Below, in pieces: positions 6,196-40,399 of a stretch of 64,000 nucleotides of DNA. Source of the stretch: Dryococelus australis (lineage: Eukaryota > Arthropoda > Insecta > Phasmatodea > Phasmatidae); contig CM057003.1 in NCBI GenBank assembly GCA_029891345.1, forward strand, positions 11,882,709 through 11,946,708, given 5' to 3'. The notes beneath the pieces are model-generated. The model made no database searches, had not been told where the DNA came from, and saw nothing but the letters and a program-made list of their open reading frames with translations. Every line of letters begins with the position of its first letter. The stretch's first letter is position 1. The translations under genes and the position numbers were made by a program.

Positions 6196-6549
6196 GTCAT
6201 ATCCGGTTGGAAACTGAAAAGCCGTAAAAAAAATACAGAGAAAGAACATACAGTCACGTACTCGTTCGGATGTAGGTCCATATTGTCTGCAGCTGTCAAA
6301 AACTGAGAACAGGAGCACACATTCTCTCCCCTAATGTTGTACCAGCTGTATTACTATTACTAAAACAGTGATTTTTTTTGTTATCTGTGAGTCGTCGGTA
6401 CCTAATGTTGCAGTAAAATGAATTTTGTGTTAAACTGAGGCTAACATTTATGTAAAAATATTTTTGTTTTAAAAAAAATATTCAGGGGTAAAGCAAATTA
6501 AGTAAAATTATTCTGTCACAAAAAGAAATATTACCAACGAAGAAAAAAA

Positions 6550-6614
6550 TGACAGCCGGCAGGGGAATTAAACCCGCGCCGTGAGTGCTTGACGTCCCGC
6601 CAACTGTTTGACTG
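6550..6614 (-). other. tRNA-like segment, possible SINE head
   Basis: On the minus strand the segment has a B-box-like GGTTTAATTCC preceded by a GC-rich arm, and an A-box-like region nearer its start. It does not fold into a convincing complete cloverleaf by eye and has no CCA end. A decayed tRNA-derived SINE head is the likeliest reading. Confidence 0.35.
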
Positions 6615-6619
6615 TGTTT

Positions 6620-7290
6620 CACATTGTGGATATTCAGATCAACGTAACGACAAACTGCAGTTCTCTTTCGTCGTGTAGAAATACTTTCTGCGCTAGAAAT
6701 ATATATTCATATTTGGAACACGTAAACTGTTTTTCAAGGCTTCAGAGCTGGTCTAAGCTACATTTAGTTCTCATATTATTCTTTAAAATTTAAAGACAGT
6801 AGTTTAATTTTACGAGCTTGGCTTATCACTGTTCACTACTACCCGCCATTTTACAACCCCAAGTCTGTGTAAACTTGTGTTAGTTGGACATTACTTTGGT
6901 GTCGCACTAACACAAAATGTTTTGCTCTTCCTGCTAATTTTAGAGTAATACAACATTTGGCTGCGGCAACATAATTTAGAGGCTTTATTAAAATTAGCAC
7001 TTAATCTGTATGTTTTCATTATAGTAATATAAGGCTTTGTAAATCGTTAAGATTATTAACTTTGTTATAGCATTATTAATTTTTACTACAACATAAACGT
7101 TTAAAGAAATGCCCCAATAGAAACGTTTCGTTGCAAGAACCTTAGATTTTTTTTTTCTGTGATAGTGAACTGATCATCCCCAAGACATTCTTCTTTACTG
7201 CCGATGCTTTATAACTATGACAGTTTCTCCAGCATCATTGCAGTATTTACAGCCCCGTGCTAAACTGCGCTTCGTTCTGCATTTCATCCT
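6620..7290. other. AT-rich flank, nothing recognised
   Basis: AT-rich DNA with no repeat seen elsewhere in the window and no credible coding frame. It forms the left flank of the A/C-only tract. Confidence 0.5.
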
Positions 7291-7294
7291 TGTT

Positions 7295-10013
7295 CCACAC
7301 ACCCACCCAAACAACCACACAACCCTAATGCAACCACACCACACACCACCCCACCACCACCACCACCCCCACACACACACCCACCCACCCACCCACCACA
7401 CCACAACCACACCACCCACACACAACCACCCACAACCACACACACCCACAACCACCACACACCACACCACCACAACCCCACAAACCACCACCCCACCACA
7501 ACCACCCCACCACAACCACACCACCCAACAACCCACACCACCACCACCACAACCACCAACCACACCACACACCACACCACCACCACCACAACCACCACAC
7601 ACCACAACCACCACCCACCACCACACACCCACCACACCACCACACACCACACCACACACCCACACACACACACCACCAACCACACCCCAACCACCACCAC
7701 ACAACCACCACAACCACACACCACACAACCACAAACCCACACCACCACCACACCACCACACACACACAACCACAAACCACAACCACAACCACACCACCAC
7801 CACCACAACCACCACCACCACAACCACCACACACCACCACCACAACACCCACACCACACCCCCACCACCACCACAACCACACCACAAACCACAACCACCC
7901 ACCAACACCACCACAACCACACCACCACCACAACCACCACCACACCAACCACCACACACACCACACCACCACAACAACCACCACAACCACAACCACCACA
8001 CAACCACCACCACCACACCACACACACCACCACACACACCACCACACCACAACCACACACCACACCACAACCACCACACCACCACCACACACCACCACCA
8101 CACACCACCCACACAACACCACCACAACACCACCACACCACCACCACCACACCACCCACACACCACCACACACCACCACCACAACCACCACCACCACCAC
8201 CACCACCACAACCACACCACCACCACCACACACCACAACCACCACCACCACAACCCCACCACACCACCACCACAAACCACCACCACCACAACCACCACCA
8301 CCAACCACAACCACCACAACCACCACACCACAACCACCCACCACCACCACCACACCACCACACCACACCACCACCAACCACACCACCACCACACCCAACC
8401 ACACCACACACCACCACCACAACCACCACCACCCACACCACAACCACACCACACCACAACCACCACACCACCACCACCACACCACACCACCACCCACCAC
8501 CCACAACAACCACCACCATCACACCACCACAACACACACCACCACACAACCACACCACCACCACCACACCACAACCACCACCACACCCACACCCACCACC
8601 CACCACAACCACCACCCCACCCACCCACCACCACCCACCACCACCACCACCCACCAACCACAACCCACCACACCCACCCACCACACAACCACCACCACCA
8701 CACCCAACCACCACCACCACACACCCACCAACACACAACACCACACACCACCCACACAACCACCACCACCACCACAACCACCACACCACACAACCACCAA
8801 CCACCACAACACCACCACACACAACCACCACCACCACCACACCACAACCACACCACCACAACCACACCACCCACAACCACCACAACAACCACAACCACCA
8901 CCACCACAACCACCACCACCACAACCACACACCACCACACAACCACCACCACCCACACACCACAACACCACCACACACCACCACAACCACCACCACCCCC
9001 AACCACCACCACCACAACACCACCACCACAACCACCACCACACACAACCACCACAACCACAACCACCACCACACCACAACCACCCACCACAACCACACCA
9101 AACCCACCACCACAACCACCACCACCACAACCACCACCACCACCAAACCACCACCACAACAACCACCACAACCACCACACCACAACCACACCACAACCAC
9201 CACCACCACACCAACCACCACACCCACCACAAACCACCTCACCACCACCAAACCAACACACCACACAAACCACCACCAACCACACCACCACCACAACCAC
9301 CACCATCACCACCACAACCACACCACCACAACCACCACCACCACAACCACCACCACCACACCACCACCACCCACCACAACCACCACCACACACCCCACAA
9401 CCACCCAACCACCACAACCACCACCACAACCACCACCACAACCACCACCATCACTCCACCACAACCACCCACCACACACCACCACCACAACCACCACCAC
9501 CACAACCAACCACCACCACCACAACCACCACCCACCACAACCAACCACCACCACAACCACCACCACAACCACCACCACCACCACAACAACCACCACAACA
9601 ACCACCCACACCCACCACCACAACCACCACCACCACAACAACCACACCACCACATCACACCACCACAACCACCACCACCACAACAACCACCACCACCCAC
9701 AACCACCACCACACCACAACAACCACACCACACCAACACACCACCACCCACCACAACCACCACCACCACAACAACCACCACCACACCAACACCACACACA
9801 AAACCACACCACCACAACACCACCACCACACCACACACACACACCACCACCATCACCACCACAACCACCACCACAACAACCACCACCACCACAACCACCA
9901 CCACAACAACCACCACAACAACCACCATCACCACCACAACCACCACCACAACAACCACCACCACCACAACCACCACCACCACAACAACCACCACCACCAC
10001 AACCATCACCACT
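7295..10013. repeat. 2.7 kb A/C-only simple-repeat tract (G/T on the minus strand)
   Basis: The plus strand is composed almost wholly of A and C, built from irregularly mixed CCA, ACC, CAA and CACA words rather than one fixed unit. No G or T occurs at 7331-8518, and none again at 8520-9238. The rare interruptions are mostly single T residues (ATC in place of ACC). The distal third (about 9300-10010) is more regular, with ACCACCACAACC-type phrasing. Because neither TAA/TAG/TGA nor its complement can form easily, both strands carry giant open frames encoding only Pro/Thr/His/Asn/Gln or Val/Trp/Cys/Gly/Leu. These are not genes. The minus strand has dense GG dinucleotides and could form G-quadruplex-like structures. 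Confidence 0.95.
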
Positions 10014-10080
10014 TAACAACTGCCAAATCACTGACTTTATTCCACCGCTGCGACGATACGCCAGTGGGAGCTGTTATAAT

Positions 10081-10374
10081 TAGGGATAGGAACTTTTCGC
10101 GAGTTCAATTCAGGACAAGATAGACGTCAAACACGTATACACTGAAGTTGACTTTGCAATTGGATCGCAGTTTATTAGACACGCCCTGGAAGACTCTGAA
10201 CCAATAGCAGACTTGTAAGGAAACAAGTAGCGAGTGCCATACTGCTAGGTGTGAAGTAACACTGCCTACTCTATGGGACAGCAGCCAATGAATAAACATA
10301 TGAGGCTCGAGTATACACATGACTGTGGAGTCTAGCCCACAGGTCATTGAACTCGCGAATTTTTCCTATCCCTA
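10081..10374. mobile_element. hAT-like MITE, TIR TAGGGATAGGAA
   Basis: The left end TAGGGATAGGAAC then TTTTCGCGAGTTCAAT is mirrored at the right by ATTGAACTCGCGAA then TTTTTCCTATCCCTA. The flanks GTTATAAT (10073-10080) and GTTACAAC (10375-10382) agree at 6 of 8 positions, suggesting an aged 8-bp duplication. Length 294 bp, similar to MITE-E (283 bp), and CGCGA(A) lies at the same depth in the terminal repeat. It is probably a sister subfamily. Non-coding. Confidence 0.8.
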
Positions 10375-10750
10375 GTTACAACTAAAGCCAGTTACTTTCT
10401 ATATATGGCAGTGATTTTACACCGAAATCGCCTATTTTATGTGCTTCTGCACCCGAATCAGTGATAATGAGTGGAATACTAGTGACTGATAGTTGAGAGA
10501 CTGTTACAGACTGGTCAATCAGTCCAGTGAAATGAAAATGAATCAGTGTCACGGAGAGATACTTGTCATTTCTGAATCCATTTTTCTTCTTTCACTTGTA
10601 CTTGAGATTGCGACTTTGTTATTTTGTATACAATAAATAACATGAAACGTATTTTTGTAAATTTTAAAAGAAATAAAATATATCTCATAATTCATAAATA
10701 ATTGCAGAGCTAGGAGGGATAACACCACGGTCAAAAACGTATACAGTAAA

Positions 10751-39573: not shown

Positions 39574-40399
39574 GACAGTAAGGTATATGAACACCGCGTT
39601 GAAAGTAACGACGGGACAGTAAGGTATACGAACACAGCGTTGAAAGTAACGACGGGACAGTAAGGTATACGAACACCGCGTTGAAAGTAACGACGGGGCA
39701 GTAAGGTATACGAACACCGCGTTGAAAGTAACGACGGGGCAGTAAGGTATACGAACACCGCGTTGAAAGTAACGACGGGACAGTAAGGTATACGAACACC
39801 GCGTTGAAAGTAACGACGGGACAGTAAGGTATACGAACACCGCGTTGAAAGTAACGACGGGACAGTAAGGTATACGAACACCGCGTTGAAAGTAACGACG
39901 GGACAGTAAGGTATACGAACACCGCGTTGAAAGTAACGACGGGACAGTAAGGTATACGAACACCGCGTTGAAAGTAACGACGGGGCAGTAAGGTATACGA
40001 ACACCGCGTTGAAAGTAACGACGGGACAGTAAGGTATACGAACACCGCGTTGAAAGTAACGACGGGGCAGTAAGGTATACGAACACCGCGTTGAAAGTAA
40101 CGACGGGACAGTAAGGTATACGAACACCGCGTTGAAAGTAACGACGGGACAGTAAGGTATACGAACACCGCGTTGAAAGTAACGACGGGACAGTAAGGTA
40201 TACGAACACCGCGTTGAAAGTAACGACGGGACAGTAAGGTATACGAACACCGCGTTGAAAGTAACGACGGGACAGTAAGGTATACGAACACCGCGTTGAA
40301 AGTAACGACGGGACAGTAAGGTATACGAACACCGCGTTGAAAGTAACGACGGGACAGTAAGGTATACGAACACCGCGTTGAAAGTAACGACGGGACAGT
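39574..40399. repeat. 41-bp minisatellite, 20 units
   Basis: From GACAGT at 39574 to the last GACAGT at 40394 is exactly 820 bp, or 20 units of 41 bp. Each unit contains GTATACGAACACCGCG and GAAAGTAACGACGG. Units are almost identical: differences are ACAGCG for ACCGCG in unit 2, TATATG for TATACG in unit 1, and GGGGCAG for GGGACAG at four boundaries. Because 41 is not a multiple of three and the minus strand has no stop, all three minus frames are open with the same 41-residue period. These are not genes. Confidence 0.97.

Follow-up and report, generated by a model that had tools for sequence, protein, structure and literature searches.

A 2.7-kb, nearly G/T-free tract in the Dryococelus australis assembly is most likely a common ACC array scrambled by uncorrected long-read errors

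Composition of the tract and its surroundings

The window (the whole 64,000-nucleotide stretch of DNA that was analysed, C11:11882709-11946708) belongs to a Dryococelus australis genome sequence that, as searched here, comprises 3,415,067,245 bases in 646 contigs. The published description of the assembly gives 3,421,391,311 bases and 1,879 scaffolds (PMC10268593). Our guess is that small scaffolds were later filtered out.

The main feature of the locus is a tract composed almost exclusively of A and C. It begins with two runs of 1,188 bases (7331-8518) and 719 bases (8520-9238) without a single G or T, exactly as an earlier note on this DNA had described them, both in composition and in position. 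Six further A/C-only runs follow up to position 10005 (66, 144, 199, 197, 74 and 77 bases). Since no other two-letter run in the 64-kb window exceeds 78 bases (a stretch of A and T), the lengths of the A/C runs are beyond chance. The non-A/C letters in 8519-10006 are nine in number (including those at 8519, 9239 and 10006). Each is a single T, seven of the nine occur in the context CATC, and most are situated toward the right side of the tract, where the sequence is least noisy. The two-letter composition is probably real and that of a G/T-free trinucleotide array. The features identified at the locus are collected in Table 1.

Table 1. Features of the A/C-rich tract and its flanks (window coordinates)
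Feature	Coordinates	Strand	Basis
Old dispersed repeat on the left flank; many genomic copies, about 72-82% identical	6403..7164	.	Scoring of 40 out of 2,523 candidates
Entire A/C-rich array with a period of 3 (ACC/ACA)	7295..10013	.	TRF (7333-10012) and A/C runs
Irregular part; 147 one-base indels relative to the three-base cycle, no G/T	7331..9238 (8519 excluded)	.	Viterbi fit, tokens
Right part; 36 indels, 6 G/T letters (Viterbi count)	9240..10005	.	Viterbi fit, T sites
59-base exact repeat; copies from 9846 and 9921 (75 bases apart)	9846..9979	.	Repeat search
Clean end; free of indels, one T in 146 bases	9860..10005	.	Viterbi fit
MITE-like short element right of the array; 37-base inverted ends, 86% complementary	10073..10382	.	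Sequence alone

The copies of the dispersed repeat on the left are too diverged for measuring the local consensus error. Scans of the 64-kb window for Rfam families (at the gathering threshold) and for tRNAs gave no matches. Elsewhere in the window, a 41-base tandem array (39574-40399) is present in 20 copies with 98% match and 0% indels. It uses all four letters and its copies are in exact register, so complex repeats assemble cleanly here.

Repeat unit and nature of the irregularity

TRF reports the tract as one ACC array (7333-10012; 896.7 copies, 75% match, 12% indels), with the period-3 tandem units across its length that characterize an (ACC)n trinucleotide array. The earlier note had seen no single short unit. 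The period-3 ACC/ACA array does provide one, interrupted by one-base changes in run length. We divided 7295-10013 into tokens, each consisting of a run of C plus a run of A. These include 509 CCA, 195 CA, 134 CAA, 45 CCCA and 16 CCAA, followed by rarer types (for example, seven CAAA and two CCCCCA). The chief departures from CCA and CAA are CA, CCCA and CCAA, each of which is off by one base. Transversion between A and C was rejected as the source of this noise: it predicts CCAA or CCCCCA in numbers similar to CA, and these are far apart in the counts. The share of CCA plus CAA per 200-base bin is 0.45 at the extreme left and 0.88 at the extreme right, although the rise is not monotonic.

Indels were counted using a Viterbi fit to a three-base cycle. 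This places 100 in 7331-8518 and 47 in 8520-9238, that is, 7.71 per 100 over 1,907 noisy bases, accompanied by 30 apparent A/C substitutions and no G or T. Going rightward, indel density drops from 9.0 to 4.0 per 100, and the final 146 bases have none. An (ACC)n array would be expected to vary by whole units and to keep its phase, which is not what the assembled tract displays, as these indels break the phase. We hold them to be consensus error rather than true sequence, with the clean end as the best guide to the true order of units.

It had also been suggested that repeated template switching or expansion-shuffling produced the tract. This idea finds no footing in the repeat structure: no exact repeat in 7331-8518 is longer than 33 bases, within the expectation of an order-1 token Markov model (median 32), and no shared blocks beyond token Markov expectation were found in 7331-8518 and 8520-9238. 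Because the irregularities are not common to distant parts of the tract, the noise was not spread by duplication. A pair of 59-base copies in 9240-10005 exceeds the 95% point of the order-1 and order-2 token models, but not that of order 3 (60 bases). A higher-order satellite was considered and rejected, there being no excess of long repeats in 7331-9238 and only this one duplication at the right end. A 33-base word taken from the right end has three matches in the genome, all inside the tract.

The G/T strand carries 69 overlapping matches of the 12-base left-handed quadruplex motif GTGGTGGTGGTG and six of AS1411, counted with the letters that we take to be the AS1411 sequence. The quadruplex potential attributed earlier to this strand is therefore present at the sequence level, and would be common to any GGT repeat. 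Left-handed quadruplexes are treated in PMC7897477 and PMC10961827, and the former gives more than 10,000 matches of the motif in the human genome. The tract shares its predicted motifs with the system described there (PMC7897477). It differs in that any sufficiently long GGT array has the motif, and in that the exact letters of the tract are doubtful.

Comparison with other ACC arrays in the genome

One 23-base word from the tract occurs at 45 places in the genome, 12 of them within the tract and several others in long ACC/GGT arrays. Read backwards, it also matches 31 times, as low-complexity words should. A word that includes one CA token matches in the tract alone, and its reversed form matches once. 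ACC microsatellites are common in this insect, since a perfect 11-unit ACC word occurs 1,091 times (overlapping counts).

Loci were extracted for the first 30 of the 45 places (the tract accounts for 12 places and for five of these loci). The comparison set consists of all ACC-like TRF arrays of at least 300 bases among the extracted loci, minus exclusions, and comprises nine arrays (L012, L017, L019, L020, L029, L030, L033, L034 and L035). Overlap with other loci of one and the same C7 array led to the removal of L031 and of the first part of L030; L014 (period 10-20) and L025 (period 24) did not qualify as ACC-like. This set supersedes an earlier one of five arrays chosen by length or by eye (69 indels in 3,681 bases).

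These kilobase arrays have the same unit as the tract and a similar length (about 0.4 to 2.5 kb). They differ in containing 5-23% G/T and 0.6-4.3 indels per 100, whereas the tract (7331-9238) lacks G/T and has 7.7 indels per 100. Their ratio of indels to G/T is 0.05-0.57. Pooled, they have 160 indels in 10,559 bases (1.52 per 100), and the difference from the tract (7.71 per 100) is significant with bases treated as independent (Fisher P = 2e-42). The contrast is weakened by two less clean arrays, L012 (4.27 per 100) and L034 (3.16 per 100). In L034, a CCCAA token present 19 times accounts for part of the rate. The search revealed no second interior tract of the same kind (A/C-only and indel-rich) besides the one studied.

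Telomeric repeats and assembly method

Insect telomeres are generally regular TTAGG repeats, and the true sequence of such a region can be expected to be regular. In this genome, TTAGG repeats are found at either end of C1 and close to the start of C2, among the matches listed (about 100 of 799). Three pure telomeric segments totalling 3,103 bases have 226 indels (7.28 per 100), 18 substitutions and no C, while two segments with variant units, totalling 897 bases, have 14 indels (1.56 per 100), 28 substitutions and 14 C; all come from C1 and C2 only, and the segments and their borders were chosen after reading the sequence. L069 1-559, L068rc 1-69, the whole of L071 and L070rc except 600-965 lie outside these counts. 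With bases treated as independent, the tract is indistinguishable in indel rate from the pure telomere (7.71 versus 7.28 per 100; Fisher P = 0.58) and distinct from the variant-unit telomere (P = 9e-13). The same noise thus occurs in a repeat of expected sequence in the same assembly. The match is imperfect as a control, in that chromosome ends are anchored on one side and the tract is interior. Overall, most repeats in this assembly that carry foreign letters are clean, and scrambling is seen in the pure repeats of kilobase length.

According to its methods text, the assembly was built from PacBio CLR reads with WTDBG v2.5, purge_dups and HiRise, and that text describes no polishing step (PMC10268593). 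Its origin is therefore that expected of a CLR artefact, namely CLR reads without polishing. The authors themselves state that a CLR assembly results in many indel errors, which short-read polishing might reduce (PMC10268593), and single-base indels are likewise what the tract displays. Their account, in the text available to us, does not discuss two-letter repeats (PMC10268593); we infer here that such errors cluster in repeats without anchors. The CLR data are deep (588 Gb) and include reads of more than 20 kb, able to span the tract (PMC10268593). Depth and read length speak against consensus error, as a better consensus would be expected from them.

Origin of the irregularity

We consider it very probable that the locus contains a real ACC array of about 2.7 kb with scattered ACA units, free of G/T apart from a few T, and that its irregularity is mostly consensus error. 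The evidence is the assembled sequence itself, the assembly method and the telomere control, and from these we infer the regularity of the true array and the role of alignment register. Errors would arise as follows. CLR reads are rich in single-base indels. Where a long two-letter repeat has no anchors, pieces of reads could slide over each other and align in many registers. Wrong run lengths would then survive the consensus vote, and stray G or T errors would be outvoted. The outcome would be a sequence that retains its composition and loses its order, starting from a true array that was presumably regular ACC/ACA. The sequencing or assembly artefact proposed as an alternative in the earlier note has the best support as the cause of the irregularity, given the similar indel rate and lack of foreign letters in the pure telomere; the two-letter composition is probably genuine.

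Errors in calling telomeric repeats from nanopore reads (PMC9414165) provide a likeness, being also systematic and confined to a simple repeat. They involve, according to that report, another technology and another type of error (basecaller miscalls). Searches on WTDBG2/CLR tandem-repeat consensus, HiFi GA-rich dropout and ACC/CCA satellites yielded, as judged by titles, none on this artefact, although an account may be in print.

We simulated the consensus by a MAFFT majority vote over an A/C array, a weak stand-in for WTDBG2. The kind of error was reproduced but not its full rate: at most about 6.2 indels per 100 were obtained (1.7 to 4.6 at depths of at least 15), below the 8.4 and 6.5 per 100 of the tract. 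No G/T remained at depth 15 in two sets and some was left at depths 3 and 5, while single runs at depths 15 and 30 retained two and six G/T, respectively. G/T anchors clearly improved the edit distance, from 36 to 15 at depth 15 and from 30 to 9 at depth 30 (single runs), but the indel rate by only approximately 1.1- to 1.5-fold at depth 15. The part played by anchors and alignment register may be as proposed, but is unproven by this model.

Should the assembled letters be true, the tract would be a kilobase array that mutates almost exclusively by one-base changes in the length of C or A runs and hardly ever by substitution to G or T, as might result from a polymerase slipping on a GGT strand prone to form quadruplexes. 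The 147 indels against no G/T in 1,907 bases, the 69 overlapping quadruplex motifs, the mostly cleaner state of the other ACC arrays and the shortfall of the simulated consensus are all in keeping with such a process. However, pure telomere in the same assembly has a comparable rate, also without foreign letters, and the assembly is of CLR type with no polishing described in its methods (PMC10268593). The process would also imply that mutations here run contrary to those in the nine other ACC arrays measured in the genome, where G/T exceed indels. We regard it as improbable. The open reading frames invite another reading, that the tract is part of a gene for a repeat-rich protein (with Thr, His-Asn or Pro-Gln repeats, depending on the frame): plus-strand frames of 984, 939 and 895 codons run through it, and the T of the seven CATC sites would be synonymous in the His frame (CAT for CAC). 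Against this, stop codons are almost absent from every frame of a strand so poor in T and G, the minus-strand frames are open as well and the indels shift the frame throughout. The open frames are thus due to composition, and a coding tract appears very improbable, even if an array freed of its indel errors could still be predicted to code.

The sequence also recalls the telomeres of budding yeast, which consist of C1-3A/TG1-3 repeats, and an irregular array of this type could have been made by a telomerase-like enzyme whose template slips. CA, CCA and CCCA together account for 749 tokens and fit the C1-3A pattern. However, a repeat of the budding-yeast type has only these three units, and 134 CAA, 16 CCAA and seven CAAA tokens fall outside it; moreover, the clean right end is ordered as ACC/ACA and TTAGG repeats occupy the ends of chromosomes in this genome (C1 and C2, among the matches listed). 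Such an origin is extremely improbable.

The tract is most likely a long simple-sequence ACC array of a common kind. As its irregularity is most likely due to uncorrected long-read errors, it gives no grounds for proposing a new mutation process. It does serve as a warning that, in unpolished CLR assemblies, long repeats without anchors can acquire an indel-only, substitution-free scramble that mimics an unknown mutation process. A built-in control is available in the assembly's own telomeric repeats wherever repeat units, reading frames or quadruplex motifs are counted in such tracts.

Further observations on repeats in the assembly

At the right end of C1, 4,253 telomere-like bases (L071 910-3501 and L069 1-1662) contain one C and 10% A, half of the A content expected of TTAGG, with G/T-only runs of up to 120 bases. 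We read this as a stronger degradation of the same kind, to which true TTGGG units may add. On the reverse strand of L070 (C2:4500-6500), clean telomere changes abruptly at 966-2001 to about 1 kb of A and T in which C is scattered and G almost absent. Strands or orientations may have been mixed in this consensus. On C7 (81794459-81800252; L029-L031), an array of several kilobases consists of CCACCACCACTGCTG-like units with 22-23% G/T and mostly retains its phase. It could be coding or an old minisatellite.
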